A stretch of 64,000 nucleotides of DNA. Source: Lachnospiraceae bacterium MD308. GTDB taxonomy: Bacteria > Bacillota > Clostridia > Lachnospirales > Lachnospiraceae. Of the stretch, positions 13,932-32,901 are shown in pieces. The translations under genes were made by a program, and so were the position numbers. The first letter of the stretch is position 1. Each line of letters opens with the position of its first letter. The stretch lies in the NCBI GenBank assembly GCA_000403475.2, contig KE159796.1:529736-593735 (forward strand). Direction: 5' to 3'. The notes below the pieces were generated by a model, which was not told the origin of the DNA, did not search any database, and saw nothing but the letters and a program-made list of their open reading frames with translations.

Positions 13932-14041
13932 TCAATAGTGGCGCAGGCACCATTTTTCCAGAAGATTAATGAGGGCGTATAGAATCATTGCCATAATGCA
14001 GAGGATAACGATGGACATAAGGAGCCAATCCATCTTAAATA
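13932..14041 (-). pseudogene. 3' fragment of the split ABC permease gene (C-terminal 34 codons)
   Basis: Downstream half of the permease gene whose upstream half is at 32214-32901. The frame reads KMDWLLMSIVILCIMAMILY and then ALINLLEKWCLRHY before TGA, which is the last transmembrane helix and the basic tail typical of SsuC/TauC-type permeases. It has no start of its own matching the family; the only Met near the front is inside the native sequence. Joining 32901-32214, one 6-bp core and 14035-13932 gives 798 nt, exactly 266 codons including stop. The fragment is therefore host DNA left of the island, not a separate gene. Confidence 0.88.
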
Positions 14042-14062
14042 GCTGAGGGGGCATTCTGATAC
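14014..14062. other. attL attachment site
   Basis: Core TAAATA at 14036-14041 with central dinucleotide AA on the plus strand (TT on the other). The island arm 14040-14062 includes GGGGGCATTCTG and is the inverted counterpart of the arm at 32187-32209 (two mismatches in 23). The host arm is permease coding sequence. The stop codon of the flavodoxin gene lies within the core. Confidence 0.85.
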
Positions 14063-14589
14063 AACATACCAAGATAATCCAATAAAGGCAGTAGATATTT
14101 TTTATCTGTCCAGTCACAATCTTGTCCTACCGCACACATAAGAGCTTTCATCCACGGTTCGTATGTATTTGGGTCTTTTTTGGCTACAGATTTTTGTAAC
14201 ATTTTGCATAAAGTTCTGTCCATAAATTTCATTTTACTTTCGTTCCATGCACCTCGCCCATAAAAAAGTGGAATATCTCTTAAATCACCCGTCAAATTAT
14301 GTTCTTTAATTGCTGCAAATGCGCCCTCATCATAAGGAGAAGCACCTACACATAATATAACCAGTTTTTTGCTTTTCAGCTTATCTATATTCTTTTTCAA
14401 AAACGATAATCCAGATATTCCAGAAGCATATATGCCACCGCATAATATGATTGTTTCGTACTGTACTACTTCATTTACCGTTATTTTTGATGTTTCTACA
14501 CAATGATAATCCGTCATTGCTTGAAGCCATTCGGCATATTTTTTTGTTGCCCCATATTTTGACTGGTAAACAATAATTCCTTTTGTCAT
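14035..14589 (-). CDS. Flavodoxin-domain protein
   Basis: 184-aa flavodoxin-like protein (HemG/Flavodoxin_5 type). The FMN phosphate loop is at the N-terminus (IIVYQSKYGATKKYAEWL), and the CGGIYASGISGL segment matches the second flavin loop. ATG 14589 is chosen with AAAGGA about 8 nt upstream; an 8-codon longer frame lacks support. It is the last gene of a three-gene remnant operon (TetR, FMN-binding, flavodoxin) driven from 15375-15403. The final codons Gln-Asn-Ala-Pro-Ser-Ala-Ile and the stop are encoded by the attL arm and core: TAA in the integrated state, TAG in the predicted excised circle. Electron partner unknown. Confidence 0.82.
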   Translation of the reverse strand: MTKGIIVYQSKYGATKKYAEWLQAMTDYHCVETSKITVNEVVQYETIILCGGIYASGISGLSFLKKNIDKLKSKKLVILCVGASPYDEGAFAAIKEHNLTGDLRDIPLFYGRGAWNESKMKFMDRTLCKMLQKSVAKKDPNTYEPWMKALMCAVGQDCDWTDKKYLLPLLDYLGMLYQNAPSAI

Positions 14590-14620
14590 TATGATTTCCT
14601 TTCCGTGTAACACTTATATT

Positions 14621-14945: not shown

Positions 14946-14947
14946 CG

Positions 14948-15403: not shown

Positions 15404-15414
15404 TTACTATAATG

Positions 15415-15445
15415 AAAAATGCGGCAAAGGTTTCTCCCTGCCGCA
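15415..15445 (-). terminator. Terminator downstream of the TnpV relic
   Basis: Minus strand: TGCCGCA and TGCGGCA arms (15439-15445 with 15420-15426) form a 7-bp stem closed by a 12-nt loop and followed by five T (15419-15415). Confidence 0.65.
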
Positions 15446-15451
15446 AATTTG

Positions 15452-15627
15452 CTATGCGTAAATGATTTCCTCATTTACAATCTCTCTCGCACACGCCCTT
15501 ATGTTATTGAGCCTCTCCCCACACGCCTATCGGCTGTTCTTTCTTGTCGGGTAAGGTAAGGAATATAATAATCTCCTTGCAGTTCATATTACAGACCATT
15601 TTTATCATCGTAAATATACTTGTCCAT
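15452..15627 (-). pseudogene. tnpV: TnpV transposon-protein relic
   Basis: Three frames on the minus strand reconstruct a degraded TnpV, a small protein carried by clostridial Tn4451-like elements. From ATG 15627 (GGAGG at 15636-15640): MDKYIYDDKNGL, a stop codon in place of Trp, then YELQGDYYIPYL. Next, shifted by one base, comes LPDKKEQPIGVWGE. After an internal deletion of roughly 60 codons, a third frame gives RLNNIRACAREIVNEEIIYA and TAG at 15452. All three blocks follow the order of intact TnpV proteins. At least three lesions show it is dead. It marks past transposon activity on the island. Confidence 0.82.
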
Positions 15628-15787
15628 TTTGAAATCCTCCAGTATAATATATTCGTACATACATTACAGTTCTCCGACTGCCACACTTTGTTATATCTTG
15701 TTATGAGATTTTCTTGCCCTTGATTTTGCCCTTATGAGCAATCAAATAAGCACCTATAAAATTGTGAGTTTACAATCGCAATTTGTG
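15628..15787 (-). other. Gap with a possible gene tail upstream of the TnpV relic
   Basis: On the minus strand a short open stretch ends FIGAYLIAHKGKIKGKKIS and stop (about 15695-15753). It looks like the tail of a truncated coding sequence, but I cannot assign it to a family. No other content is recognised up to the promoter at 15788. Confidence 0.3.
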
Positions 15788-15947: not shown

Positions 15948-18548
15948 ATGAAGAGCAAGAGTAAGGATTATACAAGGGAGTTTTTAGAGCAGGATAGCCG
16001 CCAGGATGGAAGGGCGGCTAGAAACCATGAGCGGTCCGGTGATATGAGAAGTGTTCAGAGCATGGCAGGCGTCATTAATGAGGGACTTCGCGTTGCTTTG
16101 TTAGAGGAGACGCCGGATCAATCTCTTGAGGTACTGCTTGCGCATCTGGGAAGAGCTTTGGACGGGGAACGTACATATATATTTGAGAAGAATAATGAAG
16201 GCGGTGACGACAATACTTATGAGTGGGTGGCCGATGGGGTGGAGCCGGAAAAGGACAAACTTCAAAATGTTCCGCCTGAGGTATGTGAGAACTGGTATCG
16301 GAATTTTGGTGTCGGCAGGCATATCGCTATTGAGAACCTGGAGGAAATCCGGGAAGATGCCCCTATTCAGTACAGTATATTGAAGCAGCAAAACATCCGC
16401 TCTCTTGTGGTGGTTCCCCTCTATGACAGGAAAAAGATTATCGGCTTTTACGGCGTTGACAATCCGCCGGCAAAGTCATTGGAATATGCGTCGAATATGC
16501 TTCAGACGGCGGCATATTTTATTGTGTCGTCTATAAAACGGAGGAATCTGGTTCGTGAACTGCAAAAGAGGAGCCATAATGTACTGCAGGCGCTCAGTGT
16601 GGATTATCTGGGAATCTACCAGGTGAACTTCGATACAGGAAAATGTGAAATATACCGGGACGGCGAATGGATGAGCATGGAGCGGGGCGCCGGCTTTGAG
16701 GACGGCTATCAGACGGCTATGGAGCGGTATATATCACGGTATGTGGTTCCGACAGACCAGGAACGTATACGTGTGGTGACGCAGAAAGACTACGTGCTTG
16801 CCCAGCTCAGGGAAAAGAAGAAGTTCTATGTCCGTCACCAGGTGAAAGACAGTTCCGACGAACTGAAACATCTGGAGATACATTTTTCTGCCACGGAGAA
16901 GACGGCGGAAGAGAATTGCGTGATTTTTGCCCTGCGGGATGTCAATGCTGTGGTGGAGCAGGAAGAGGAGTATAAGCAGCAGGCAAGGAAGAGCCTGGAA
17001 GACACTCTGGAAGGGGCCAGAACCGGAATCTGGACGATTGAGCTGGAGGAAGGATGTCAGCCGAGGATGTATACGGACCGCACCATGCGTTACCTTCTTG
17101 GGGTATCGGATGATATTGAGCCGGAAGAGTGTTACCGGCACTGGTTTGAAAACATTGAACCAGACTATGTGGAGATGGTTCAGGAGGCAGTGCGGGAGAT
17201 ATTGGAAAACGGACGCTCTGAAGTGATCTACCCTTGGAGACATCCCGAGCTTGGGAAAATCTATGTCCGATGCGGCGGCGTACCAGACAAAACATATAAA
17301 AAACCAGGGGTCAGCCTGAATGGATACCATCAGGATATTACGGAGACTATGGTTACAAGGAGAAAGCAGGAGCAGGCCATCATGGAGCTGCTCGAGAAGG
17401 TCAGACGGGCCAATTCGGCAAAAAGCGAATTCCTTTCCCGTATGTCTCATGATCTGCGTACACCTATCAACGGGATTCTGGGAATGCTTGCCATTATAGA
17501 GAAAAGTCAGGATGATCCAAAGCAGCAGAGGGAATGCCAGAAGAAGATCCGCGTATCGGCAGAGCACCTTTTGTCTCTGGTGAACCATGTCCTTCAGGTC
17601 AGCAAGCTGGAGAGCGGAAGGCCGGCAGCGGTGGAGGAGCCTTTTGACCTTCACGATGTTTTGGAAAGCTGCATCGCGGTTATGTCAGCCCAGGCAGAGG
17701 AGATGAGAATCCGGCTGGAACTTAAGGGGGCCGACTTGCAGCATAGCAGGCTGATTGGAAATCCTCTTGATTTGAAGCAGGTATTAATGAATGTCATAGA
17801 CAATGCCCTTAAATATAACCTTCCTTACGGTTCGGTATTTGTTCGTGTAAAAGAGACGGGCTTTCAAGACGGCACCGCATATTACCGATTTGTGATTGAA
17901 GACACAGGAATCGGCATTGGGGAAGACTTTAAGAAGCATATTTTTGAGGCGTTCACTCAGGAGAATCAAGGTGCAAGGACTAACTATGCCGGCGTTGGGC
18001 TTGGCATGTCTATTGTTAAAAAGCTGGTAGACCAGATGGATGGAACCGTGGAAGTAGAAAGCCGGATTGGTGAAGGGAGTGTGGTTCAGATTGACTTGCC
18101 GATTCGGGTCGATGGAGAGTGGCATGTTAAGTCTGTGGATGAGGAGCGGAATTTGCGGAGCAATGTTGCCGGGATGCGTGTACTTCTGGTGGAGGACAAC
18201 GAGATCAACCGTGAAATCGTGGAGTTTATGCTTAAGGACGCGGGCGTTGGTGTCGTGTCAGCTAACGACGGAAGGGCTGCCGTGGATGCGTTTGCGGCAT
18301 CTGAGACGGGAACGTTTGACTGTGTGCTCATGGATTTGATGATGCCTGTTATGAGCGGATACGAGGCGGCCCGTGTGATTCGCGGTCTGGACCGGACTGA
18401 CGCAAAAGACGTGCCTATCATAGCGCTTTCAGCCAACGCGTTTGAAGAGGATGTTGCAATGGCGAAGGCTGCCGGAATGAATGAGCATCTGGCGAAACCG
18501 GTGGATATTAAAAAAATGTTTGAAGTTATGAGCTGCCTGAGGCGATGA
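15948..18548 (+). CDS. GAF/PAS hybrid histidine kinase (island)
   Basis: 866-aa soluble hybrid kinase. An N-terminal GAF domain (about 45-200, ending in SLVVVPLYDRKKIIGFYGVD) is followed by two PAS-like domains (about 210-345 and 355-465). HisKA carries phosphoacceptor His501 (RMSHDLRTPINGILGM), HATPase has NVIDNALKYN, DTGIGI and GVGLGMSI, and the receiver has Asp796 (LMDLMMPVMSG) with Lys in LAKPVDI. ATG 15948 has AAAGAGG upstream. The next kinase gene begins 42 nt later, so both are likely cotranscribed. No HPt protein or separate response regulator lies on the island, so the output target is unknown. Confidence 0.87.
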   Translation: MKSKSKDYTREFLEQDSRQDGRAARNHERSGDMRSVQSMAGVINEGLRVALLEETPDQSLEVLLAHLGRALDGERTYIFEKNNEGGDDNTYEWVADGVEPEKDKLQNVPPEVCENWYRNFGVGRHIAIENLEEIREDAPIQYSILKQQNIRSLVVVPLYDRKKIIGFYGVDNPPAKSLEYASNMLQTAAYFIVSSIKRRNLVRELQKRSHNVLQALSVDYLGIYQVNFDTGKCEIYRDGEWMSMERGAGFEDGYQTAMERYISRYVVPTDQERIRVVTQKDYVLAQLREKKKFYVRHQVKDSSDELKHLEIHFSATEKTAEENCVIFALRDVNAVVEQEEEYKQQARKSLEDTLEGARTGIWTIELEEGCQPRMYTDRTMRYLLGVSDDIEPEECYRHWFENIEPDYVEMVQEAVREILENGRSEVIYPWRHPELGKIYVRCGGVPDKTYKKPGVSLNGYHQDITETMVTRRKQEQAIMELLEKVRRANSAKSEFLSRMSHDLRTPINGILGMLAIIEKSQDDPKQQRECQKKIRVSAEHLLSLVNHVLQVSKLESGRPAAVEEPFDLHDVLESCIAVMSAQAEEMRIRLELKGADLQHSRLIGNPLDLKQVLMNVIDNALKYNLPYGSVFVRVKETGFQDGTAYYRFVIEDTGIGIGEDFKKHIFEAFTQENQGARTNYAGVGLGMSIVKKLVDQMDGTVEVESRIGEGSVVQIDLPIRVDGEWHVKSVDEERNLRSNVAGMRVLLVEDNEINREIVEFMLKDAGVGVVSANDGRAAVDAFAASETGTFDCVLMDLMMPVMSGYEAARVIRGLDRTDAKDVPIIALSANAFEEDVAMAKAAGMNEHLAKPVDIKKMFEVMSCLRR

Positions 18549-18589: not shown

Positions 18590-21175
18590 ATGAAGAATAT
18601 AGCTTTGCCGCGTTTTTTAAAGATTAGCACAGCAGTAATCGTCTGCTTAAATATTTGCATTTTTTTGTTTTTGGGGATATCTATAAACAAAATGAGCGGG
18701 AATACGATTAAGAATATAGGGACTGCTTATATGTCCGGGATGAGTAAGCAGGTATCCTTGCACTTTGAAACGATTATTGCTCTTCGCCTTACAATGGCAG
18801 AATCTATTGCGCACATTGCGGCAGACGAAGAAAATTTAAGCTATGGCTCGAGGGAAGAGATAGAATACGGTGCAAAGGCAAGGCACTTTCTCTGTGCCGG
18901 CTTATATTCACCTGACGGAAAAGTCGAAATGATTTACGGAGATTCTGTGAAGCCGAATCACCCGGATACTTTTTTGGGTAGTTTGAAAAATGGGGAACGA
19001 AAAATGGCCTCCGCTGTAGACAGCAGCGGAAACAATATAATTATGTTTGGAGTTCCCTGTAAGTACCCCATGTCTGACGGAAGTGACAGTCTGGCTATTG
19101 TTGTAGGGCTTTCTTCTAAGTATATGGGCGAGGTGCTCTTCCTTGAGGCGGACAGTTCGCTGGCTTACTCTTACGTCATACGCAAGGATGGAAGTTATGT
19201 GATCCGGGATCAAGATGGCAGCAATGAGAACTATTTTGACAGGCTTTATCGTATCTTTGACGGACAGAAAGAAGAATCGGATTACTATATTGGCCAGATG
19301 ACGGCAGCAATGAACGCTGATGAAGATTATTCTGTCATATTGAAAAGCGGCGGGTCGCGCCGTCACCTGTATTGTACCAATCTTCCGTACTGTGAATGGT
19401 ATCTTGTGACAGTTCTTCCTTTTGACACATTGGATGAAGAAATTTCCAATATGAGCAGCCAGTGGCTTATTATTGTCTATGCGGCTTCTTTTGTTGTAAT
19501 TGCTATGCTTTTGTATATATTCTTTCAGTATTTAAGAGTATTAAAAAAGCAGGTGGCCGAATTAAAGCGTGTGAACGCGGAAATGGACACCGCGCGTAAA
19601 GCTGCCGAAGATGCGCAGAAAGAAGCGGAGTACGCCAATGCTGCAAAACAGGACTTTTTGTCCAGCATGAGCCATGATATACGAACTCCAATGAATGCCA
19701 TCATCGGTATGACGTCGATTGCTATGACTAATATACATAATCAGGAGCAGGTCCAGGAATGCCTGCGAAAAATAGAATTATCCAGCAACCACCTTCTGGG
19801 CCTTATTAATGACGTGCTTGATATGTCTAAGATTGAAAGCGGTAAGATGACGTTGAACATTGCGCCGGTTTCTTTAAGGGAAGTGATGGACAACATTGTG
19901 AATATTGTGCAGCCGCAGGTAAAAGGAAAAAATCTGCAGTTTAACGCGGCAGCATATGAAATCCTTGCGGAAGATGTGTGCTGTGACAGTGTGAGGCTTA
20001 ATCAGGTGTTGATTAACCTGCTTGGGAATGCGGTCAAATTTACGCCGGATAGCGGAACGGTACAGGTATCTGTGTACCAGGAAAAGCTGCCGGGAGATAC
20101 TTCCCGTGTCCGCACGCATTTTTTGGTGACAGATACGGGCATCGGCATGTCAAAGGAATATCAGGAAAAGTTGTTTGACTCCTTTAGCAGAGAGGACAAC
20201 GCCCATGTGCAGAAAACGGAAGGCTCCGGGCTTGGAATGGCAATTACCAAGTGTATTGTAGATGCTATGGGCGGTACGATTTCTGTCCAAAGCGAGTTGG
20301 GCAAAGGAAGTAAATTTCATGTGGTTTTTGATTTTGAAAGAGCAGAGGAGCGGAAGCCCGATTCCTCTCTTCCTGACTGGAATATGCTTGTAGTCGATGA
20401 GGATGAGCGGTTGTGTATAAATGCAGTCCATTCGCTAAAGCAGCTCGGTATTCACGGGGAATGGTGTCTGAGCGCAGAGCGTGCAGCGGAAATGATTGCA
20501 GAGCGTGCCCGCCAGAATGATAATTATCATCTGGTTCTTTTGGGACAGCAATTACCGGATATGAAAGGGATTGAGATTGCCCGCGTGATTCGTTTGAAAT
20601 ATGGGGACGATTGCCCGGTTTTACTGATTTCATCCTGTGGTTGGAGCGAGATGGAAGAAGAAGCCAGGGCAATGGGGATTTCCGGGTTTATTGCCAAACC
20701 TCTGTTTAAGTCTGCTTTGTTTGATGCTCTTAAGATATTTGCAGGAATATCCGGTGAAGAGGATGTGGAATCGGAGCAAGAGACGGATAAAGAGTTAAGA
20801 GGAAAGCATATCTTACTTGCGGAGGACAATGAGCTTAACTGGGAAGTTGCAAAAGAGCTGTTCTCTATACTTGAGATAAAATTGGACTGGGCTGAAAATG
20901 GAGAAATATGTGTTGCGGAATTTGAGAAATCTCCTGTCGGATATTATGATGCAATTATCATGGATGTCAGAATGCCTGTGATGGACGGATATGAAGCTTC
21001 TCAGGCAATTCGAAGGCTGGAGCGTGACGATTCGGATATTCCTATTATTGCGATGACGGCCGATGCTTTTTCGGAGGACATTCAAAGGTGTCTGGAGTGC
21101 GGTATGAACGACCATCTGGCAAAACCGATTGATCTTGAAATTGTCGCCCGGAAATTAAAAAAATATTTAAAATAA
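18590..21175 (+). CDS. Membrane hybrid histidine kinase with degenerate first receiver (island)
   Basis: 861-aa membrane kinase. First transmembrane helix about 11-30, extracellular sensor of about 250 residues with Cache-like spacing, second transmembrane helix about 290-313, a coiled linker, HisKA with His362 (SMSHDIRTPMNAIIGM), and HATPase (NLLGNAVKFT, DTGIGM, GSGLGMAI). Two receivers follow. In the first (about 600-715) the phosphoacceptor position is Gly652 (VLLGQQLPDMKG), so it cannot be phosphorylated in the normal way. The second has Asp792 (IIMDVRMPVMDG) and Lys in LAKPIDL. It lies downstream of the soluble kinase and directly ahead of a very strong terminator, and is followed by the sugar-type operon, whose substrate it might sense. 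Confidence 0.87.
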   Translation: MKNIALPRFLKISTAVIVCLNICIFLFLGISINKMSGNTIKNIGTAYMSGMSKQVSLHFETIIALRLTMAESIAHIAADEENLSYGSREEIEYGAKARHFLCAGLYSPDGKVEMIYGDSVKPNHPDTFLGSLKNGERKMASAVDSSGNNIIMFGVPCKYPMSDGSDSLAIVVGLSSKYMGEVLFLEADSSLAYSYVIRKDGSYVIRDQDGSNENYFDRLYRIFDGQKEESDYYIGQMTAAMNADEDYSVILKSGGSRRHLYCTNLPYCEWYLVTVLPFDTLDEEISNMSSQWLIIVYAASFVVIAMLLYIFFQYLRVLKKQVAELKRVNAEMDTARKAAEDAQKEAEYANAAKQDFLSSMSHDIRTPMNAIIGMTSIAMTNIHNQEQVQECLRKIELSSNHLLGLINDVLDMSKIESGKMTLNIAPVSLREVMDNIVNIVQPQVKGKNLQFNAAAYEILAEDVCCDSVRLNQVLINLLGNAVKFTPDSGTVQVSVYQEKLPGDTSRVRTHFLVTDTGIGMSKEYQEKLFDSFSREDNAHVQKTEGSGLGMAITKCIVDAMGGTISVQSELGKGSKFHVVFDFERAEERKPDSSLPDWNMLVVDEDERLCINAVHSLKQLGIHGEWCLSAERAAEMIAERARQNDNYHLVLLGQQLPDMKGIEIARVIRLKYGDDCPVLLISSCGWSEMEEEARAMGISGFIAKPLFKSALFDALKIFAGISGEEDVESEQETDKELRGKHILLAEDNELNWEVAKELFSILEIKLDWAENGEICVAEFEKSPVGYYDAIIMDVRMPVMDGYEASQAIRRLERDDSDIPIIAMTADAFSEDIQRCLECGMNDHLAKPIDLEIVARKLKKYLK

Positions 21176-21372: not shown

Positions 21373-21401
21373 TTGACAAAAAGTTATTTTATTTGTATCA
21401 T
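21373..21401 (+). promoter_or_regulatory. Promoter of the island transport/catabolic operon
   Basis: TTGACA (21373-21378), 17 bp, TATCAT (21396-21401). Near consensus. The predicted start falls in the operator at 21407-21420. Confidence 0.8.
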
Positions 21402-21406
21402 GAAAA

Positions 21407-21420
21407 TGTAATCAATTACA
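21407..21420. promoter_or_regulatory. LacI-family operator overlapping the transcription start
   Basis: TGTAATCAATTACA: two 6-bp inverted arms around CA. The form TGTAAnCGnTTACA is characteristic of LacI-family sites. It begins five bases after the -10 box, so binding would block the polymerase. The LacI gene at 27070 in the same operon is the likely ligand. Confidence 0.65.
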
Positions 21421-21461
21421 TAATGTGTAATGCGCGTACACAAAGAAGAAGGAGGAGAAAT

Positions 21462-22562
21462 ATGAAAGGTAATAAGAAAAGTATATTATTGACGGCGATG
21501 CTGACAATCATGTTGATTCTTTCGGCATGCAGTCAGGGAGGGAATGGAAAAGCAGATAAAAATCCAGAGGAGGAGAAAAAGGAGGGAATCAATATCGCTC
21601 TTTTGGATTCTTCAAACGGAAATGCCTGGCGTGCACAGATGGAAGCGGAAATGGATGAGGCTGCTGCTCAATATAAGAAAGAGGGCATTATTCAAAACTA
21701 TACTGTTTATTCTGCAAATGATGATGCGACTCAGCAGTCTTCACAGCTTAGCCAGATTATAACCGAGGGGAAGACGGATGTTGTTATTATCAATCCGGTA
21801 TCCGCTACTTCTCTTAATCCAGTTATCGATAAAGCGGTAAAAGCGGGAATCAAGGTTATTGGTGTCGATTCTGTCATTGCCCATCCAGATGTTGTGACAA
21901 TTGCTACGGATCAGTATAAGTGGGCGCAGATACAGGCAGAATTCCTGGTTGAGAAGCTGGGAGGAAAAGGGGATATTATTATCTATAATGCAATGGCAGG
22001 AGTACCGGCAAGTGACACAAGAGAGAAAGCATTTGACGACGTGGTGGCGAAGCATCCGGATATTAAAGTATTAAAGAAAGTATATCATGGATGGGATGAA
22101 GGAGAAGCGAAGCAGTTGACGGCTACGATGATTTCTACTTATTCCAACATTGACGGTATTCTCAATCAGGATTGTTCACCGGGAATCATGCAGGGCTTTA
22201 AAGAGGCGGGAAAGGACATGCCTAAAGTAATCACCAGCGATGGTTCGATTACTTATCTGAATATGTGGAATGATTACAATCTGAAGAATCCGGATAAAGC
22301 ATTTGAAGGGATTATCGTGGCAAATCCTCCTGGAATGGGAGTTGATGCCATTAAAATTGCAATCAGGCTTATGCACGGGGCGGAATTTAAGGATGATGCA
22401 CTTAAGGATTCAGATGGAGGAAAAGCAGTTCTTCTTGATCCTGATCCGGTTATTACAAACGAAAACCGTGAGGAATGGGTGGAGAAGGTAAAGTCAATGG
22501 ACGCTTCCTACACATTTTCAACAGTGCTTTCCGATGAGCAGATTGACGGGCTGTTCAAATAA
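21462..22562 (+). CDS. Sugar-type ABC substrate-binding lipoprotein
   Basis: 366-aa lipoprotein of the ribose/galactose-binding (Peripla_BP_4) class. The signal peptide ends in the lipobox LSAC (Cys about 26). Typical elements: INIALLDSSNGNAWRAQMEA at the first strand, VVIINPVSATSLNPVIDKAV, GIKVIGVDSV and the hinge-side DGILNQDCSPGIMQGF. Ribosome site AAGGAGGAG, ATG 21462; an upstream in-frame ATG at 21393 overlaps the promoter and is excluded. First gene of the LacI-controlled operon, followed by an ATPase and two permeases. The ligand cannot be read from sequence; neighbours suggest a sugar, polyol or glycoside. Confidence 0.88.
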   Translation: MKGNKKSILLTAMLTIMLILSACSQGGNGKADKNPEEEKKEGINIALLDSSNGNAWRAQMEAEMDEAAAQYKKEGIIQNYTVYSANDDATQQSSQLSQIITEGKTDVVIINPVSATSLNPVIDKAVKAGIKVIGVDSVIAHPDVVTIATDQYKWAQIQAEFLVEKLGGKGDIIIYNAMAGVPASDTREKAFDDVVAKHPDIKVLKKVYHGWDEGEAKQLTATMISTYSNIDGILNQDCSPGIMQGFKEAGKDMPKVITSDGSITYLNMWNDYNLKNPDKAFEGIIVANPPGMGVDAIKIAIRLMHGAEFKDDALKDSDGGKAVLLDPDPVITNENREEWVEKVKSMDASYTFSTVLSDEQIDGLFK

Positions 22563-22585
22563 TGTATGGCAGGGGGTAACGCATT

Positions 22586-25062: not shown

Positions 25063-26015
25063 GCAAGATGCGAAATAAAATACAAAGCCAGAAGTTTATT
25101 CTCGTCGGGATTACGATAGTGCTCCTGTTTACCGGGTGTATGATCAATGGGCAGTTTTTAAGACCGGCCAACGTTGCAAACATCTTGATTACGGCATCTC
25201 TTCTTGGATTTGTAGCCAGCGGCCAGACGTTGGTAGTACTCTCTGGGAATGACGGGCTTGACCTGTCGGTTGGCGGAGTTATGTCACTTGGGGCAGTGGT
25301 TGCTTATATCATCATGGACGGAAGCGACGGGAAGCTTCTAAAGGCATTTTTCATCGTCCTGTTTGTGGGAGCTGTTGTAGGACTATTCAATGCAGTAGGA
25401 GTCGTGTTTGCAGAGATACCGGCACTTGTGATGACACTGGCGGTGTCCAATGCGCTGACTAGTGTGCAGCAGTTGATTACCGGAGGCAATCCGACGGGTG
25501 CTCCCTCCCCGGCAGCAAGCAGGATTGCTACTTCGAAGGTGGCAGCATTTCTACCTTGGCTTACGGTAATCTGGATTGCATTGACTTTTGCTATGTATCT
25601 GCTGCTTACCAGGAGTACATATGGAAAGCGGCTGTATGCTGTGGGAAGCAATGAGAGAGCGGCAGTATTATCAGGAATACAATCGGGCAGGATTCGGATA
25701 TACACGTATATGATCTGCGGGGTGCTCAGTGCATTTGCCGGATTCTGGCTCTGCGCGTACAACGAAGTTATTTATGTAAATGCAGGCGCCTCTTATGTAA
25801 TGCCGTCTGTGGCAGCAGTTGTAATCGGCGGGACATCCATAGCCGGTGGGAGAGGAAGCTATATGGGTACGGCGGCGGGAACGGTCATCTTAACAGTAAT
25901 AAGCAGCCTTCTTGTTATGATGGATACGAATGAAGCCGGGAAATATATGATGAATGGAGTTATTTTGTTGGTGCTTTTAGTTATCTATACGAGGCATCCT
26001 AAGATAAGACAATAA
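25059..26015 (+). CDS. Sugar ABC transporter permease 2 (RbsC-like)
   Basis: 318-aa second permease of the same family, with the block VLSGNDGLDLSVGGVMSLGA and the C-terminal VIGGTSIAGGRGSYMGT motif. About nine membrane segments. GTG 25059 overlaps the upstream stop; ATG 25068 with GGGGAAGG upstream is an equally plausible start. It differs enough from permease 1 that a recent duplication is unlikely. Confidence 0.88.
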   Translation: MSKMRNKIQSQKFILVGITIVLLFTGCMINGQFLRPANVANILITASLLGFVASGQTLVVLSGNDGLDLSVGGVMSLGAVVAYIIMDGSDGKLLKAFFIVLFVGAVVGLFNAVGVVFAEIPALVMTLAVSNALTSVQQLITGGNPTGAPSPAASRIATSKVAAFLPWLTVIWIALTFAMYLLLTRSTYGKRLYAVGSNERAAVLSGIQSGRIRIYTYMICGVLSAFAGFWLCAYNEVIYVNAGASYVMPSVAAVVIGGTSIAGGRGSYMGTAAGTVILTVISSLLVMMDTNEAGKYMMNGVILLVLLVIYTRHPKIRQ

Positions 26016-26037
26016 AAATAAATGGAGGAGTAAAATT

Positions 26038-27000
26038 ATGTATAAAATCAAACAGAGCATGGACGCGGTGAATTACGGAGGATATTTTCATGAGGGAGGT
26101 CCGCTGACAATGGAGCAGATTATCGATAAGGCAGCCGAATTCGGATATGATGCCGTGGATATCTGGCCTCATAAACCTCTGATGTATCCGGGAGACTGGA
26201 GTAAGGAGAGGAGAAGAGAGCTGCTTGCTTACGCGAAGAAGAAAGGAATCAAGTTCGCGGCGGTGGACGCATGTACAAATTTCATGCGGTCTAAGCATGC
26301 GCTGGTGCCTGATGTGGAAAAGGAGCTGCCATACCTGAAAGAGTGCTGTGAGCTGGCAGAGGATATGGAATGTGGAACAGTAAGAATTATGCCGGCATTT
26401 ATCGGTTATTTCTGGAGCGAATATTCGAACCAGGGATACTGTCAGACAGCACTTACGACACGGTCTATGGAAGTATCAAAGCAGGAGGATTACTATCAGG
26501 AATGGATACATGTAAGGGAGGGGATTAGAGAGGCAGCGAAGATGGCAGAGAGTTATCCGGTTGTTCTGGCGCTTCAGGGGCATCCGCCAGTGGTAAATTG
26601 TGTGCAGGACTTGTTTGATATGGTAGAGGAAGTAGGGATGGCTAATGTAAAGATCGGTCTGGATTTACCTCTTTTTGATCATCAGACGGAAGCGTTCATC
26701 TATGAAACAGTAAGACGTGCAGGCAAGGATATGGCGCATTCCCATACGCTTGGGGTTGGAATCAAATATGGACCGAGTGACAGTATTTACGCGACAGAAG
26801 AGGTGGTGCCGGGTGACGGTATCGAAAACTGGGTTCCGTTTTTCAAAGCATGTAAGGAGATTGGCTATGAGGGATATTTTGCATATGAGCAGTGCGCACC
26901 GTTTTTTGTTAAGGGGCACAGAAAGCCTGATGTAGCCGATGTTGATGAACGCCAGAAGAAGGGATTTGCGTTTATTAAATCTCTTGAGGAGAAGATTTAG
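26038..27000 (+). CDS. TIM-barrel sugar isomerase/epimerase-like protein (AP-endonuclease-2 fold)
   Basis: 320-aa xylose-isomerase-like TIM barrel. Strand-end residues that normally bind a divalent metal are visible as IGLDLPLFDH (Asp, His), AHSHTLGVG (His) and FAYEQCAP (Glu). At the usual first metal-binding glutamate the sequence is VVLALQGHPP, with Gln. That replacement could change or weaken metal binding, or define a subfamily. AATGGAGGAG precedes ATG 26038. With a second TIM-barrel protein and a Gfo/Idh oxidoreductase in the same operon, a 3-keto-sugar or inositol-like route is suggested. The reaction is not known. Confidence 0.78.
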   Translation: MYKIKQSMDAVNYGGYFHEGGPLTMEQIIDKAAEFGYDAVDIWPHKPLMYPGDWSKERRRELLAYAKKKGIKFAAVDACTNFMRSKHALVPDVEKELPYLKECCELAEDMECGTVRIMPAFIGYFWSEYSNQGYCQTALTTRSMEVSKQEDYYQEWIHVREGIREAAKMAESYPVVLALQGHPPVVNCVQDLFDMVEEVGMANVKIGLDLPLFDHQTEAFIYETVRRAGKDMAHSHTLGVGIKYGPSDSIYATEEVVPGDGIENWVPFFKACKEIGYEGYFAYEQCAPFFVKGHRKPDVADVDERQKKGFAFIKSLEEKI

Positions 27001-27021
27001 GATGTTAAATATTTCCATAGA

Positions 27022-27030
27022 TGGTATAAT
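27022..27030 (+). promoter_or_regulatory. Extended -10 promoter before lacI-type gene
   Basis: TGGTATAAT: consensus -10 with the TGn extension, 40 bp before ATG 27070. The -35 region is poor (TTAAAT at 15 bp). It could give a low internal level of repressor. Confidence 0.45.
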
Positions 27031-27069
27031 ATAGGAAGCAAAAAAAGATAAAGGCGAGTGGGCGGACAT

Positions 27070-28053
27070 ATGACAAATATTCAAAAAGTAGCTGAGAAGG
27101 CCGGTGTATCGGTCGCTACAGTATCAAGGGTGATCAATGGTTCAGGAAAGGTAACTGAAAAGACGCGCAAGCGGGTAGAAGATGTGATAGCTGAGATGAA
27201 TTATGTGCCGAATATGCTGGCACGTAACTTTAGGACATCAAAAAGTAAGACAATCCTGATCATACTAACGAATATTTCGAATTTATTTTATATGGAAATC
27301 GTACATGGAATCAGCGAATATGCCAATGAGAAGGGGTATGATATTTTGCTGAGCGAGACAGACGGAGAGTTAAAACGGCAGGTTGAATGTCTGCAGAAAG
27401 TAAAGAACCGGATTGCTGACGGGGCGGTGTTTTTGGAGACGACGATTCAGGACGAGGTGCTGTTTTCACTTGAAAAGGAGTATCCGGTTGTTCAGTGCTG
27501 TACTTATAATGATGAGATATCCCTGCCCTATGTGATCGCGAACAATGAAAGAGGCGGGTACATAGCTGGAAACGAGCTGATTAAAGCGGGAAGAAGAAAG
27601 CTGGCCTTTATCGGAACAAATGATAAGTCGAGATATAATAAAGAGCGGCGGACAGGATTTTTCAGGGCTGCGCAGAAAGCGGGAATCCGGACAGAGGAGA
27701 TCTGTACGATGAATATAGAGCTTAGCTTTGACGGGGGACGAAGCGCAGCCGAGATTTTAATGAAAGAAAAGGTTGACGGATGTTTTTTTGTTTCGGACAT
27801 GCAGGCAATAGGTGCGATCAACAGATTCACGGAGTCCGGAGTATGTGTTCCGAAGGATATTTCGGTTATCGGTTATGATAATTTGGAAATCTGCAATTTT
27901 ATTGTGCCGTCTTTGACATCCATCGGCCAGCCTGCCAGAAAGATGGGGCAGGAGACAGCAAAGATGCTGATTGATAAAATAGAAAAAGAAGACACGTCCG
28001 GCATGAGAAATATTATATTTGAACCAGAATTGATTCGCCGGGAATCGGTGTAG
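27070..28053 (+). CDS. LacI-family transcriptional regulator
   Basis: 327 aa. N-terminal helix-turn-helix TNIQKVAEKAGVSVATVSRV with the hinge-helix region YVPNMLARNFRTSKS, then a periplasmic-binding-like ligand domain (IILTNISNLFYMEIVHGISE, DGCFFVSDMQAIGAI, DISVIGYDNLEICNFIVPSL, TSIGQPARKMG). Start ATG 27070; an in-frame GTG at 27058 adds four residues. It sits inside the operon, with a possible promoter of its own, and is the likely repressor acting at 21407 and 21277. Ligand domains of this class usually bind the transported sugar or a derivative. Confidence 0.9.
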   Translation: MTNIQKVAEKAGVSVATVSRVINGSGKVTEKTRKRVEDVIAEMNYVPNMLARNFRTSKSKTILIILTNISNLFYMEIVHGISEYANEKGYDILLSETDGELKRQVECLQKVKNRIADGAVFLETTIQDEVLFSLEKEYPVVQCCTYNDEISLPYVIANNERGGYIAGNELIKAGRRKLAFIGTNDKSRYNKERRTGFFRAAQKAGIRTEEICTMNIELSFDGGRSAAEILMKEKVDGCFFVSDMQAIGAINRFTESGVCVPKDISVIGYDNLEICNFIVPSLTSIGQPARKMGQETAKMLIDKIEKEDTSGMRNIIFEPELIRRESV

Positions 28054-28095
28054 AATGGAAGAGCGTAAGCTTCATTTTAGACAGAAGGAGAGATT

Positions 28096-29115
28096 ATGTA
28101 TAGAGCAGGAATCATTGGCTGCGGCAAGATTGCACAGCTTCGTCATATTCCGGAGTATGCTGTGCGGACAGACGTGCAGCTTGCAGGATTTTATGATAAG
28201 AATACAGTCAGAGCAAAAGAACTGGCAGAGAGATACGGAGCACAAAATTACAGTTCCTATGAAGAGATGCTGAACGATCCAGAGATTGATGTCGTTAGCG
28301 TCTGTACGGCAAATCATTCACATGCGGAAATTGCTATAGCTGCGCTGCACGCCGGCAAGCATGTGCTTTGTGAAAAGCCCATGGCGGTTACTTTAAAAGA
28401 GTGTGAAAGGATGGAAGAAGAAGCACAAAAAAGTGGAAAATATCTGATGATCGGACATAACCAGCGGTTGTTGCGCACGCATCAGGAGGCAAAAAGGCTG
28501 CTGGCTTCGGGTGAGATCGGGAAACTGATTTTCTTCCAGACTAATTTTACCCATGCAGGGCCGGAGACATGGAGTATAGACGCGGGAAAGAACGTATGGT
28601 TTTTTGATAAGAGTAAGGCGGCTTTTGGGGCCATGGCGGATCTTGGGATTCATAAAACGGATTTGATACGTTATCTGACGGGAGACGAGATTGTGTCCGC
28701 ACATGCGGTTCTTGCTACTTTGGATAAAAAAGACAGTGAGGGGATGAAAATTCCGGTGGATGATTATGCCGCCTGCATATATCGTCTGAAAAACGGGGCA
28801 GCCGGTACGATGACGGTAGGATGGAGCAACTATGGTCAGGAAGATAACTCGACGATTTTATATGGCGAAAAGGGCGTAATGAAAATATACTGTGACAGGA
28901 AGTACTCGTTGCTCATAGAAAAAAGAGACGGCAGCAGTGTGCGGTATGAGCTTGATCAGATTCAGACCAATGACGGGCAGTCAAAGTCAGGAGTGATTGA
29001 TGAATTTATAGACTGTATCAGGGAAAAGAGGGAGTCTGTTATCGGAAGTAAAGAAGCACTTAAGTCCATGCGGGCAGTATTTTCCGGGATTGAAGGGACG
29101 TACGCCGGCAATTGA
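28096..29115 (+). CDS. Gfo/Idh/MocA-family NAD(P)-dependent oxidoreductase
   Basis: 339 aa. The N-terminal Rossmann fold begins YRAGIIGCGKIAQLRHIPEY (GxGxxA/G-type nucleotide loop), followed by the family block HAGKHVLCEKPMAVTLKECE with the catalytic EKP lysine. The C-terminal alpha/beta domain has DLGIHKTDLIRYLTGDE, containing the conserved (D)xxxH pair. AGAAGGAGAGATT precedes ATG 28096. Members oxidise a hydroxyl of sugars, inositols or glycosides, often at C3. In this operon it would produce the keto intermediate used by the two TIM-barrel proteins. Confidence 0.88.
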   Translation: MYRAGIIGCGKIAQLRHIPEYAVRTDVQLAGFYDKNTVRAKELAERYGAQNYSSYEEMLNDPEIDVVSVCTANHSHAEIAIAALHAGKHVLCEKPMAVTLKECERMEEEAQKSGKYLMIGHNQRLLRTHQEAKRLLASGEIGKLIFFQTNFTHAGPETWSIDAGKNVWFFDKSKAAFGAMADLGIHKTDLIRYLTGDEIVSAHAVLATLDKKDSEGMKIPVDDYAACIYRLKNGAAGTMTVGWSNYGQEDNSTILYGEKGVMKIYCDRKYSLLIEKRDGSSVRYELDQIQTNDGQSKSGVIDEFIDCIREKRESVIGSKEALKSMRAVFSGIEGTYAGN

Positions 29116-29141
29116 GCAAAGGGATGAAAAGGAGGAAGCTG

Positions 29142-30056
29142 ATGAAATTAGGGTTGGTCAGTGCGATTTTGGGAGATGAGACTTTTGAGCACATGATAGA
29201 TATCATTGGTGAGATGGGATTTTCTTGTGTAGAAGCGGCATGCTGGCCGTCAGGGAAAGCGGAGCGCAGATATGCAGGAGTTACACATATTGATGTTTGG
29301 AATCTGGATGAGAAGAAGAAAGAGTATATTCTGCGGTATTGTGAGGAAAGAGGAGTCAAACTGTCTGCACTCGCATTTTATCCGAATACCATGGATTCTG
29401 ACTTTGAGAGAAAAGCGGCAAATATCGAACATCTAAAGAAAGTAATCCAGGCTTCCAGATTGCTTGAGGTAGGAATGGTCACTACGTTTATCGGGCGGGA
29501 TCAGACAAAGACGGTGGAGGAAAATCTGGAGCTTTTTGCGGAGACATGGGGGGATATATTAGCGTGTGCAGAAGAGAATAAAGTTAAGATTGCTATTGAA
29601 AACTGTCCGATGCTGTTTGGGAGAGAGCAGTGGCCGGGTGGACAAAATCTGGCGGTGAGCCCGGATATATGGCGGAGGATGTTTGAGATATTTCCAAGTG
29701 AATATTTTGGGCTGAATTATGATCCAAGTCATTTTGTATGGCAGCAGATGGATTATATCAAGCCGGTATATGAGTTCAGGGATAAAATATTCCATGTACA
29801 TTTTAAAGATATCAAGGTATATCAAAGTAAGCTTGACGACGTAGGGACTCTGGCATATCCTCTTGAGTATATGGCACCGAAACTTCCGGGCTTGGGCGAT
29901 GTAAAGTGGGATCGGTTTGTGAGTGCGCTTACGGATATAGGGTATGATGGATATGCGTGTATAGAGGTGGAAGACCGAAGCTTTGAAGGGAATACGGAGG
30001 ACGTAAGGCGAAGCCTGATGCTCAGTAAAAAGTATATGGAACAGTTTGTGATATAA
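29142..30056 (+). CDS. TIM-barrel sugar isomerase/epimerase (complete metal site)
   Basis: 304 aa, xylose-isomerase-like. All expected metal ligands can be seen: Glu in KIAIENCPMLF, Asp and His in GLNYDPSHFVW, His in FHVHFKDIK and Glu in ACIEVEDRS. ATG 29142 follows AAAGGAGGAAGCTG; a GTG/TTG-type start at 29112 overlapping the previous stop is less likely. It is related to, but clearly different from, the 26038 protein. Last gene of the catabolic operon. Candidate roles are epimerisation, isomerisation or lyase cleavage of a keto-sugar derivative. Confidence 0.85.
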   Translation: MKLGLVSAILGDETFEHMIDIIGEMGFSCVEAACWPSGKAERRYAGVTHIDVWNLDEKKKEYILRYCEERGVKLSALAFYPNTMDSDFERKAANIEHLKKVIQASRLLEVGMVTTFIGRDQTKTVEENLELFAETWGDILACAEENKVKIAIENCPMLFGREQWPGGQNLAVSPDIWRRMFEIFPSEYFGLNYDPSHFVWQQMDYIKPVYEFRDKIFHVHFKDIKVYQSKLDDVGTLAYPLEYMAPKLPGLGDVKWDRFVSALTDIGYDGYACIEVEDRSFEGNTEDVRRSLMLSKKYMEQFVI

Positions 30057-30122: not shown

Positions 30123-30155
30123 AATATGTTATAAAAAACGAAAGCGTTAGAGATT

Positions 30156-30323
30156 ATGCCGACCCATTTTTCACAAGCTCAAATTAATGAAAGAAGCAGC
30201 CTGGCGCCTAAAGATGCAAAGATTATGCTCAGGCTGGCAGAAATATTAATGAAGGATAATTTAATAAGCCCGGAAGAAAAGCTTCGCTTGACCGAGCGAA
30301 TCCGGAAAGAAGACGCTCTATGA
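30156..30323 (+). CDS. 55-aa protein translationally coupled to the recombinase
   Basis: MPTHFSQAQINERSSLAPKD, then a helical, charged part with ILMKDNLISPEEKLRLTERI. It ends CTATGA, so its stop overlaps the recombinase ATG by four bases, a classic coupling arrangement. Ribosome site is weak (AGAG). Size, charge and placement resemble accessory factors of serine integrases, such as recombination directionality factors, but no family was recognised; the SPEEKLRL segment also resembles short SHOCT-like helices. The reading frame is open throughout and its last codons cannot be a shadow of the recombinase, which starts after it. Confidence 0.6.
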   Translation: MPTHFSQAQINERSSLAPKDAKIMLRLAEILMKDNLISPEEKLRLTERIRKEDAL

Positions 30324-32155
30324 TTTTACGCGCTGTAATCTATGCCCGCTGCAGTACGGAGGAGGAAAGCCAGAAGGATGCTTTAAAAAAGCAGGTGGAA
30401 GAGGGGAAAATATGTGTCCGTGAAAAGGGCTGGATACTTAAGGATATTTACGTGGAAAGCCGTTCAGGGACGACGACAAAGGGAAGAAGTGAGTATAACC
30501 GTCTTTACAATGATCTGCAAAGGGATAGGTTTGATATTATTGTTATTAAATCCCAGGACAGACTGATGCGGAATACAAAGGACTGGTATCTTTTTGTAGA
30601 CCGTTTATTGACCGGTCAGAAGAAGCTTTACATATATATTGAAAGGAAGTTTTATACGACAGATGATGCACTGATTACCGGAATCAAGGCGATACTGGCG
30701 GAGGAATACAGCCGGGAGCTAAGTAAGAAGATTAATAATGCACACAAAAACCGCCAGAAACAGGGTGGCCCGGTAGTCCTGACATCTAATACATATGGAT
30801 ATCGTAAACTGCCGGATAAGAGTGTGGTAATTGTGGAGGATGAGGCGAAGGTAAAGCGGCGCATGTACGAACTGTGCGCTGCAGGATTCGGAAGCAGGAG
30901 TATATCTGCAATCTTAAAGAATGAGGGTATCGTCGGCAGGAATGGAAAACCTTTTACAGATTCTGCAATTCTCCGTATGATACATAATCCTTTGAATAAG
31001 GGGACGGCAGTGATGAACAGGCTGCATTATGATTTTGAGTCGAAGAGGACGATGAGAGTGCCGAGAGAAGAACAGTATGTGCATGAAAATAAAGTGCCGG
31101 CGATTGTGTCAGAGGAACTCTGGGAGGCTGCAAATGAGGAGATTGCAAAGCGCGCGGAGACGGCGGGATTGGCAGGGGAGAGGAAAAGGGGAAGAAATCC
31201 CGGAAAATCCCCGTTGAGCGGGAAATTGGTCTGCGGATTATGCGGAAGTCCTTATTATAGAAGAACAAGGAGACGCTATAAAGACAAAGATATCATTTAT
31301 GAATGGAAATGCAAGAGATATCTGGAGTTAGGAAGAAATGAGGGGAAGGCGGACAGACCGCAGTTAAAACAGGTAAGATGCCTTGAAGTAAACGGATGTG
31401 ACAACGTTCATCTTGAAGAGAGGAAGCTGTACGGATTGCTGGAACAGGTCTGCAATCAAAGGTACAGGACGGATAAAGCAAAGATTATCGGCTATATGGT
31501 AGATTTGCTGAAAGTCGTGCTGAAAGAAGAGGACTGCCAGCTGGAGTTTGACAGAGAAATTCAGAAAAAGGAGAAACTTTTAAAGCAGATGGATATGCTG
31601 GTGGAAAAGCTTTTAGATGAAATCATCTCGAATGAAGTTTATCAAAGAAAACAAAAAAGATTAGAAGAGCAGCTTTCAGGCGTGCAAAATAGGATTAATG
31701 AATTAGAACGCCAAGAGGCGAAGGGCAGTGTGCTGCAAGAGAGATTTTCTTATATTGAAAAGGAGCTGCGGACGGGGAAAGCCGTGGAGAGAGCTGCAGT
31801 CATGCAGATGCTTGAGGAGACTGATAAAATTCTTGTATTTCCGGAATTTATGGAGATTGTGTTCGGCTTGTCTGAGGCGATGAGAACAGAGTGTGGGGAT
31901 ATCCCGCCAATGGAGTGTGAGAGCAGTATAAAAATAGAATACGGCAATCTGTTCAGCTATAGAGAGCAAAAGAAAGAGGAGCGGGAGATTATCGTGGATA
32001 TGATGAGGGAAAATCCACGGATAACTGCCGGAATGATTGCGAAAGAACTGCGCATCAGCCTGTCGGGGGCTAATTACCGGATAAGGGCACTGAAAAAAGA
32101 GGGAAGGATTCGGTTTAATGGAAGCGGAGGAAAAGGTGAGTGGGAAATATTGTGA
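30320..32155 (+). CDS. Large serine recombinase (site-specific integrase) with C-terminal winged helix
   Basis: 611 aa. Resolvase domain 1-150 with catalytic Ser12 (IYARCSTEEES) and the arginine-bearing IKSQDRLMRN helix. A Recombinase domain (about 155-290) contains TYGYRKLP, SRSISAILKNEGI and FTDSAILRMIHNPLNKG. The zinc ribbon has Cys305 and Cys308 (LVCGLCGSPYYRR) plus downstream CKRY/VRC cysteines. A long coiled coil (about 400-490) follows. The C-terminus (about 560-611) is a winged-helix-like module (NPRITAGMIAKELRISLSGA), an addition most serine integrases lack. It lies 52 bp from the island's right end, as expected for the enzyme that cuts there. The reading frame is intact. Confidence 0.92.
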   Translation: MILRAVIYARCSTEEESQKDALKKQVEEGKICVREKGWILKDIYVESRSGTTTKGRSEYNRLYNDLQRDRFDIIVIKSQDRLMRNTKDWYLFVDRLLTGQKKLYIYIERKFYTTDDALITGIKAILAEEYSRELSKKINNAHKNRQKQGGPVVLTSNTYGYRKLPDKSVVIVEDEAKVKRRMYELCAAGFGSRSISAILKNEGIVGRNGKPFTDSAILRMIHNPLNKGTAVMNRLHYDFESKRTMRVPREEQYVHENKVPAIVSEELWEAANEEIAKRAETAGLAGERKRGRNPGKSPLSGKLVCGLCGSPYYRRTRRRYKDKDIIYEWKCKRYLELGRNEGKADRPQLKQVRCLEVNGCDNVHLEERKLYGLLEQVCNQRYRTDKAKIIGYMVDLLKVVLKEEDCQLEFDREIQKKEKLLKQMDMLVEKLLDEIISNEVYQRKQKRLEEQLSGVQNRINELERQEAKGSVLQERFSYIEKELRTGKAVERAAVMQMLEETDKILVFPEFMEIVFGLSEAMRTECGDIPPMECESSIKIEYGNLFSYREQKKEEREIIVDMMRENPRITAGMIAKELRISLSGANYRIRALKKEGRIRFNGSGGKGEWEIL

Positions 32156-32181
32156 TAATGTTGTGTTTTCTGGAACGATAG

Positions 32182-32901
32182 TCAAAGTAACAGAATGCCC
32201 CCGCAGCTAAATACTTGGCTGGAATAGATGATAAGATATCCAAGTCCGTTTCTTGCCGCCAGAAATTCCCCGATGATAACTCCCACGAGACACAGCCCGA
32301 TATTCACCTTCATATTACTGATGATTGACGGCAGCGAGTGAGGAAGCACAACTTTAATGAGTGCTTGCAGCCTGCTGCCTTGCAATGTGTAGATTAACTT
32401 AATCTTCCCAGGGTCTACTGTGACAAAACTGCTGTATAGGCTTAAGATACTGCCGAAGATGGCAACGGACATCCCGGCAGTGATAATGGTTAGTTTGTTG
32501 GCTCCAAGCCACACAATGAGCAGGGGCGCAAGTGCTGACTTCGGGAGGCTGTTTAACACAACTAAGTAAGGGTCTAATATTTCCGACAGCTTTTTGCTGA
32601 ACCACAGGCATACAGCTATGAAAATACTGACTATAATTACGAGAACAAAACTTATAATTGTTTCATAAAGAGTTACTCCTATATGGAGAAAGATGCTTTT
32701 GTCTAGAACCATGCCCCAAAAACAAAGGGCAATCTTTGAAGGACTGCAAAAGATAAAGGAGTCTATCCATCCTACATTTGCAGAAAATTCCCAGAGGAAC
32801 AGGAAACTTAGCAGAATGAGGATTCTGGAAATCTTAACAATCCGCTGTTGTTTTTTTTGTTCTTTCAGGAATAAAAGCTGTTCTTTGGAAAATTCACTCA
32901 T
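32182..32901 (-). CDS. NitT/TauT-type ABC permease, truncated by the island
   Basis: 239-codon open frame. Residues 1-231 are a BPD_transp_1 permease: first membrane helix near 27-45, then the EAA-type loop GSRLQALIKVVLPHSLPSII and IGEFLAARNGLGYLI. The last eight codons (Ser-Cys-Gly-Gly-Ile-Leu-Leu-Leu) come from the island arm, replacing the native final helix found at 13932-14041. It is therefore missing its last transmembrane segment and is probably inactive while the island is in place. ATG 32901 overlaps the ATPase stop by 8 nt, with GGAAGGAG upstream. Substrate likely a sulfonate, nitrate-like anion or thiamine precursor, by family only. Confidence 0.87.
   Translation of the reverse strand: MSEFSKEQLLFLKEQKKQQRIVKISRILILLSFLFLWEFSANVGWIDSFIFCSPSKIALCFWGMVLDKSIFLHIGVTLYETIISFVLVIIVSIFIAVCLWFSKKLSEILDPYLVVLNSLPKSALAPLLIVWLGANKLTIITAGMSVAIFGSILSLYSSFVTVDPGKIKLIYTLQGSRLQALIKVVLPHSLPSIISNMKVNIGLCLVGVIIGEFLAARNGLGYLIIYSSQVFSCGGILLL
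32187..32234. other. attR attachment site
   Basis: Core TAAATA at 32208-32213. The island arm 32187-32209 holds CAGAATGCCCCC and is inverted relative to the attL arm. The right side is permease coding sequence (CTTGGCTGGAAT on the plus strand). Confidence 0.85.

Follow-up and report, generated by a model that had tools for sequence, protein, structure and literature searches.

Staphylococcal cassette chromosomes (SCC) are inserted in rlmH/orfX. Together with the Enterococcus cassette chromosome (ECC), they are described as sharing a fixed point of insertion, highly variable cargo, att sites with inverted repeats and large serine recombinases, which are stated, for ECC, to be the sole conserved genes (PMC6222049). 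Other serine-recombinase elements, skin and SP-beta/spsM, reversibly cut sporulation-related genes (PMC5025042, PMC4191935), and gin, which lies in gerE, is described as lacking phage genes, as encoding a 42-aa directionality factor (GirX) and as excising (PMC5595907). One integrase family with one main protein-gene target has been reported for the dusA islands, in which the integrase is the sole universal part of highly diverse elements (PMC4482086), and diverse large serine recombinases have been described whose target is a single conserved coding site, in a prolyl isomerase gene, or for the most part a single magnesium chelatase-type gene (PMC10083194). Here we analysed a 64,000-nucleotide stretch of Lachnospiraceae bacterium MD308 (contig KE159796.1, positions 529,736 to 593,735), hereafter the window, in which an 18.2-kb mobile island (14036..32207) divides a NitT/TauT-type ATP-binding cassette (ABC) permease gene located on the minus strand.

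A preliminary description of this DNA had proposed a serine-integrase island dividing an ABC permease, and the boundaries, enzyme and cargo that it gave agree with the joined 265-aa frame and the domain matches obtained here. It had treated the island as a single case; we found instead that it is a member of a family with one fixed target. It is highly probable, in our judgement, that these elements form a single-target, cassette-chromosome-like island family that splits its target permease gene and would leave it by excision. Like SCC and ECC, they combine a conserved serine recombinase with a fixed insertion point, variable cargo and inverted repeats in the att sites; unlike them, they have one recombinase, which is not of the CcrA/B/C type, and a different target, the ABC permease gene, which is split in these islands. 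The window recombinase is only distantly related to CcrB, XisF and CcrC (82 bits for CcrB and 58 bits for CcrC versus a cut-off of 900). With skin, SP-beta/spsM and gin they share a serine recombinase, a coding gene cut in two, a short direct repeat and the possibility of precise restoration, but in those systems the targets are sporulation-related and excision was demonstrated, whereas the present islands cut the gene of a transporter subunit and their excision is a prediction. The dusA islands are similar in having a single integrase family, a single main target and diverse contents; unlike the present islands, they depend on tyrosine recombinases, occur in Proteobacteria and may restore dusA function upon insertion (PMC4482086).

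As with the single-target recombinases of PMC10083194, the target is one conserved coding site. The main text of that paper contains none of the words ABC transporter, permease and Lachnospiraceae, and the passages compared here do not deal with cargo or with what becomes of the target. Both single-target integrases with varied islands (PMC4482086, PMC10083194, PMC6222049) and serine-recombinase elements that reversibly cut genes (PMC5595907) are known. Their combination, in which cassette-like elements split a transporter gene and selection mostly maintains its orphaned end, was not found among the literature matches listed. Likewise, no report of integrase islands in this permease was found among the matches listed from the open-licence literature, judged by titles and the beginnings of abstracts.

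The divided permease gene and its empty site

Native permease coding runs from 32901 to the core at 32208-32213, resumes at the left core and stops at 13932. The cut lies after codon 231 of 265 and removes the last helix. When the flanks were joined over one core copy, an open permease frame of 265 aa was obtained, reading ...SSQVF|KMDWLLMS... across the junction, so that a serine-recombinase element lies within a coding gene whose two parts are in frame once joined. The longest exact repeat between the two compared junction stretches is TAAATA, which the preliminary description had reported at each junction and which is indeed present at both (Table 1). The 5' part of the permease is SsuC/TauC/SaoP-like, with a score under every NCBIfam cut-off shown.

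The permease-ATPase region was present in all five other genomes of the genus that were compared. Two of them (G001, locus L003, and G002, locus L006) contain an empty attB and a permease that is uninterrupted along its 265 residues, with protein identities of 87.5% and 88.7%, respectively. The orphaned 3' end of the window matches these intact genes in 22 of 25 residues (L003) and 23 of 25 (L006), as counted by eye. The right-flank DNA of these relatives is 80-81% identical to that of the window, and the left-flank DNA, which contains a methyl-accepting chemotaxis protein (MCP) gene, is 83% and 92% identical. The uninterrupted 265-aa permease predicted earlier was thus found in both relatives, but the flanks, expected to be identical, were not, and about 1.5 kb including two small genes (12549-13706) remained unmatched. 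In the loci of the other three genomes, G003, G004 and G005, the permease could be matched only up to residue 238; the same contigs also encode integrases that are 80, 87 and 83% identical to that of the window, respectively. The two small open reading frames (ORFs) at 12549-13706 are located directly to the left of the island and have no counterpart in the empty-site relatives, where the match on the MCP side stops 35 (L003) and about 100 (L006) bases from the permease end; they could represent a second insertion or a remnant.

When the island ends were rejoined, the sequence CAGAATGCCCCCGCAGCTA-AA-TAGCTGAGGGGGCATTCTG was obtained, in which 18 of 19 positions are complementary around the central AA. 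Among 200,000 random joins of window segments, the maximum was 15. This palindrome has the expected form of a serine-integrase attP with a central AA. The inverted arms that flank the core had been overlooked in the preliminary description, as had a 55-aa ORF that overlaps the start of the integrase gene and a flavodoxin-domain gene at the left junction.

A recombinase family with a single target gene

A scan of one genome per species yielded 73 loci with relatives of the window integrase, 68 of which (L019-L087 without L083) showed at least 41% identity (41-86%). At 63 of these 68 loci, half of the same permease was present in the fetched DNA, and the junction codon was identical at every locus where it was read. 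As for the other five, L021 and L033 are short contigs (7.8 and 6.6 kb) with no permease half, a permease match at L033 being a false orphan end that was excluded from the counts; the contig of L059 begins inside the permease 5' half; both halves of L045 are located elsewhere in its genome; and L076 is the phage contig described below. In a family sample of 397 genomes, 24 have the integrase at E<=1e-90. The permease match stops near the junction in 17 of the 21 genomes with at least 43% integrase identity, namely the window's genome, G004 and 15 others; the last matched residue is 232-244, except in G166, where it is 256 with an in-frame stop. A separate 3' half was also seen in six of those 15. 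The permease is intact in the three genomes whose integrase is 34-37% identical, which indicates that, in these samples, the target specificity ends between about 37 and 41% identity. At L041, L063 and L066 the integrase adjoins the 3' half instead of the 5' half, and the module is therefore found on either side. The genome of L079 (G425) has the permease 3' end twice, and its 5' part is interrupted once more, which suggests that a tandem or second insertion took place at this site.

In the 49 elements for which both junctions were available, an element's own arms were complementary at a mean of 12.1 of 18 positions, versus 7.4 when arms of different elements were combined; this mean was not attained in any of 5,000 permutations, and a shift of the centre by one base abolished the effect. 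The arm sequences therefore vary between elements and yet match within each, as expected for binding sites that track their own integrase. A small ORF similar to that of the window was identified by similarity search upstream of the integrase in 57 of 69 loci, and an ORF of similar size, whose resemblance was judged by eye only, is present there in seven of the other 12 (L054, L066, L068, L069, L072, L073 and L079). By analogy with GirX of gin, this ORF may encode a directionality factor.

According to the mechanism that we propose, the large serine recombinase would recognise one site within the permease gene and join the palindromic attP of the island to attB across the central AA, splitting the gene and depriving it of its last helix. 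The reverse reaction, probably with the participation of the small protein encoded just before the recombinase, would restore the gene exactly. The same module, consisting of the recombinase, usually the small ORF, and the attP arms, is found at an identical codon in many Lachnospiraceae, where its cargo is mostly unrelated, and it moves between lineages.

The sizes of the islands range from 3.3 to about 100 kb: the halves are 3.3-11.1 kb apart at 21 loci with both halves, and their positions in whole genomes define islands of approximately 14, 17, 36, 40, 45 and 100 kb in G428, G405, G401, G421, G431 and G420, respectively. The integrase, usually the small ORF, and the inverted arms are common to them, and the other content mostly differs; as in cassette chromosomes, the recombinase module alone is generally conserved. 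Some near relatives do share cargo (window/L020, L025/L026 and L041/L063). The families detected in other islands include phosphotransferase system (PTS), FecCD, TRAP and ABC transporters, AAA/PD-(D/E)XK proteins, AMP-binding enzymes and DUF3990; these scans covered 103 of 106 non-integrase ORFs of small islands and 182 of 207 of larger ones, and the tallies mostly represent the 25 commonest families of each set. The 100-kb insertion between the permease halves of G420 (L174-L178; G420:C13:88000-187999) contains, besides many cobalamin-biosynthesis families, families of relaxases, coupling proteins and further recombinases.

For 55 loci, the integrase tree and the permease-half tree were mutually rejected in the approximately unbiased (AU) test (p about 1e-7 and 1e-94); 13 of 52 splits were common to both, and 46 pairs of splits were in strong conflict. 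The pairwise identities of integrase and permease nevertheless correlate (Mantel r 0.67, 0 of 2,000 permutations). The conflict and the correlation together fit transfer across genera with near relatives preferred, and exclusively vertical inheritance was rejected because of the tree conflict. The group formed by the window, L019, L020 and L028 is common to both trees, with a conflicting inner order.

A possible vehicle was found in the phage contig L076. This contig of a metagenome-assembled genome shares 21.6 kb of identical sequence with a 99-kb IMG/VR contig (L194), in which a scan of 22 proteins detected phage DNA polymerase, primase, helicase, endolysin and tail-fibre families. The integrase on these contigs is 45% identical to that of the window, and beside it, at L076:11601-11638, lies an uninterrupted attP-like palindrome, CTGTATGTAGACACAGGTA-AA-TACCTGATACCACATACAG, with the core TAAATA and a left arm that resembles the junction arm of L079. 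Among the palindromes listed for 12 of the 72 fetched loci, only that of this contig was convincing by eye as an attP; L079 has another palindrome with a TAAATA core (13/18), which was not judged convincing as attP. A phage with this type of site thus exists and is a possible source of the module or its carrier. Among the best 15 of 370 matches listed from phage records, 14 large serine recombinases showed less than 30% identity, and one partial match reached 62% over 276 aa in a 14-kb unannotated record. The islands themselves would need another route of transfer, as is the case for ECC in the account of PMC6222049.

These islands mark a precise site, readable in the sequence, at which metabolic, regulatory and possibly defence-related cargo is integrated in Lachnospiraceae, and they can be located by seeking a permease cut after codon 231. 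With them, the known gene-interrupting elements are extended to islands that are not phages and that target a transporter gene, and the many occupied genes make the reversibility of such interruptions testable. In addition, the integrase clade, with its matched attP/attB pairs, is a source of new single-target recombinases for laboratory use.

Fate of the orphaned 3' end and competing explanations

In 55 occupied genes, the window included, the 25-codon stretch of the orphaned end was free of stop codons in every case, and none of the 55 permease 5' halves contained a stop before the junction. In a simulation of neutral drift to 10% divergence, a stop appeared in 18% of such stretches. The ratio of nonsynonymous to synonymous differences (pN/pS) in the orphaned end was 0.166 for the 84 pairs of occupied genes, 0.162 for 254 pairs in which both genes are intact and 0.172 for 274 mixed pairs, all of them with 75-95% identity in the 5' half. 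Since the readable orphan ends are constrained like intact genes, occupancy should be short-lived or regularly reversed. These comparisons suggest that the split state is mostly young or regularly undone, allowing for missed ends, and that most orphan ends speak against a permanent loss of the permease.

How this preservation arises can be explained in several ways. In a narrower form of the reading given above, insertion is frequent, lineages whose permease is broken are lost and excision is not a regulated process, the ends looking intact because nearly all insertions are young; we give this somewhat less than an even chance. It agrees with the often different cargo of near relatives, with the conflict between the integrase and permease trees and with the number of occupied genomes in the family sample (24/397). 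Against it, pairs of islands that are grouped by both trees have diverged while the end has been kept: L041 and L063, which also share cargo sequence and the side on which the integrase lies, differ in the integrase at a pS of 0.75, and their orphan ends at a pN of 0.077 versus a pS of 0.50, although re-insertion in each lineage is possible. In addition, the ratio in 12 close occupied pairs was 0.11 for the orphan end versus 0.12 for the 5' half. The pair L041/L063 favours reversal or constant renewal within the lineage, regulated excision and re-insertion not being separated by these data. A stronger proposal, which we regard as rather doubtful, is that the islands act as a family-wide genetic switch, in which conditions determine whether a nutrient transporter is held interrupted or complete by the integrase and its small partner. 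If this were true, the cell would alternate between an imported-cargo state and a transporter state, selection would keep the split gene across species, and the system would be a skin-like reversible interruption acting on metabolism rather than on sporulation. The constraint on the end would likewise be accounted for if the 3' fragment were translated separately and its helix assembled with the truncated permease into a working transporter; in the window, the fragment has an ATG one base past the flavodoxin stop, which would permit coupled re-initiation. However, in a simple scan, a start codon with a ribosome-site-like motif was present in just three of the 55 orphan ends, that of the window included, and the neighbouring cargo gene is not conserved. 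We set this explanation aside on account of that scan and keep it as a weak rival of very low probability.

Other explanations concern the origin of the island. It could be what is left of a prophage or conjugative element after the loss of its other genes; the phage contig L076/L194, with its related integrase and uninterrupted palindrome, and the relaxase and coupling-protein families of the 100-kb island of G420 could be adduced in favour of this. In contrast, Pfam detected no relaxase, secretion/conjugation, or phage structural or packaging family among the 12 larger ORFs of the window island, and no phage or conjugation gene was seen in the small islands among 24 of 24 families in one tally, or among the 25 listed of 34 families, of 86 families and of 57 PHROGs in others; a remnant is therefore improbable. 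That two unrelated permease pieces are accompanied by a coincidental repeat might be considered given that the core has just six bases, but the intact orthologues, the palindrome statistics and the occurrence of the same split at dozens of loci refute it, and its probability is negligible.

Several observations weigh against a reversible, single-target island family or limit how far it can be carried. Sampling one genome per species does not address occupancy within species. Four of the 21 genomes of the family sample with at least 43% integrase identity are not clean: G117 has both a split and an intact permease copy, with flanks 88% alike; G059 shows a permease with more than one break; the result for G109 is ambiguous; and in G346 the integrase was present and no permease match was found. 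Outside these four, G440 (L048) has an intact permease that is 92% alike over 131 bases to its own split 5' half. The idea that one population holds both states in G117 and G440 was rejected, since copies only 88% and 92% alike more likely reflect two organisms per bin or two alleles of distant origin. Orphan ends were collected by similarity, so that decayed ends can escape; whole-genome searches for 10 loci with the 5' half only recovered a readable end in four (L028, L044, L050 and L052) and an intact gene in one (L048), and found no 3' end in the genomes of the other five (L043, L056, L068, L072 and L085). In G407 (L050), one of three 3'-end copies is damaged, with its first residues missing and an early stop. 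Decay has therefore occurred in a redundant copy and could have gone unseen at the five loci without an end. Preservation could also come from recent insertion alone, and the small ORF is tied to the integrase only by its position. Excision in living cells and the way of transfer between cells, like the role of the small ORF, are inferred. The three copies of G407 lie within about 9 kb (L227; G407:C25:48000-62000), on a contig other than that of the 5' half, in an arrangement that looks like stacked or successive insertions.

Cargo of the window island and adjoining features

The features of the island and its borders are listed in Table 1. The cargo had been described as neither phage nor standard conjugative, with two hybrid kinases and a sugar-type operon, and this agrees with the Pfam scan of the 12 larger ORFs, of which one had no match; two TIM-barrel enzymes are among the products. 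The large serine recombinase that had been placed near the right junction was likewise confirmed by its domains.

Table 1. Coordinates of the island, the divided permease gene and adjoining features in the window
Feature	Position	Strand	Remarks
Orphaned permease 3' end, last 34 codons, last hydrophobic helix	13932..14035	-	Joined frame open; first base of K232 in core (14036)
Flavodoxin-domain cargo gene	14035..14613	-	PF12724, 4.4e-20; TAA stop created by left junction
Left core TAAATA (attL)	14036..14041		Putative crossover dinucleotide AA at 14038-14039
P' arm TAGCTGAGGGGGCATTCTG	14040..14058		Inverted partner of 32191-32209, 18/19 complementary
Cargo ORF, 151 aa	14948..15403	-	No Pfam or NCBIfam match
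Hybrid histidine kinase 1 (GAF, HisKA, HATPase, receiver)	15948..18548	+	86.6% protein identity in L020 island
Hybrid histidine kinase 2 (HisKA, HATPase, two receivers)	18590..21175	+	87.1% in L020 island
Sugar-type ABC importer: binding protein, ATPase, two permeases	21393..26015	+	PF13407, PF00005, PF02653 twice
Catabolic genes: sugar epimerase/isomerase-like, LacI regulator, Gfo/Idh/MocA dehydrogenase, IolE-like TIM barrel	26038..30056	+	Domain matches
Small ORF, 55 aa, candidate directionality factor	30156..30323	+	Overlaps integrase start
Large serine recombinase, 611 aa	30320..32155	+	Resolvase PF00239, Recombinase PF07508, zinc-ribbon PF13408, C-terminal winged helix
Permease 5' part	32182..32901	-	231 native codons plus 8 codons into island, then stop; PF00528, 3.4e-17
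P arm CAGAATGCCCCCGCAGCTA	32191..32209		Inverted partner of 14040-14058
Right core TAAATA (attR)	32208..32213		AA at 32210-32211
ATPase gene adjoining permease, outside island	32894..33700	-	PF00005

The two kinases recur in the L020 island (87% protein identity) without the sugar operon. Between the window and L020, the kinases differ by a synonymous distance of 0.58-0.60, compared with 1.05 in the integrase and 1.60 in the adjacent ATPase, suggesting that the kinase cargo may have been exchanged more recently than the integrase and ATPase, with the proviso that such rates differ between genes. The sugar operon was matched at E<=1e-100 in four of the 397 family genomes, and the sole other near-complete copy is that of G310, a genome of another genus, where it shows 81-83% DNA identity and is located on a different contig from the intact permease.

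A search against Rfam at gathering thresholds gave nothing but one tRNA. Upstream of the kinases, at 15437-15511, a stretch of approximately 60-70 bases without an Rfam match recurs in several genomes of the genus at about 79-92% identity, in the manner of a dispersed repeat.

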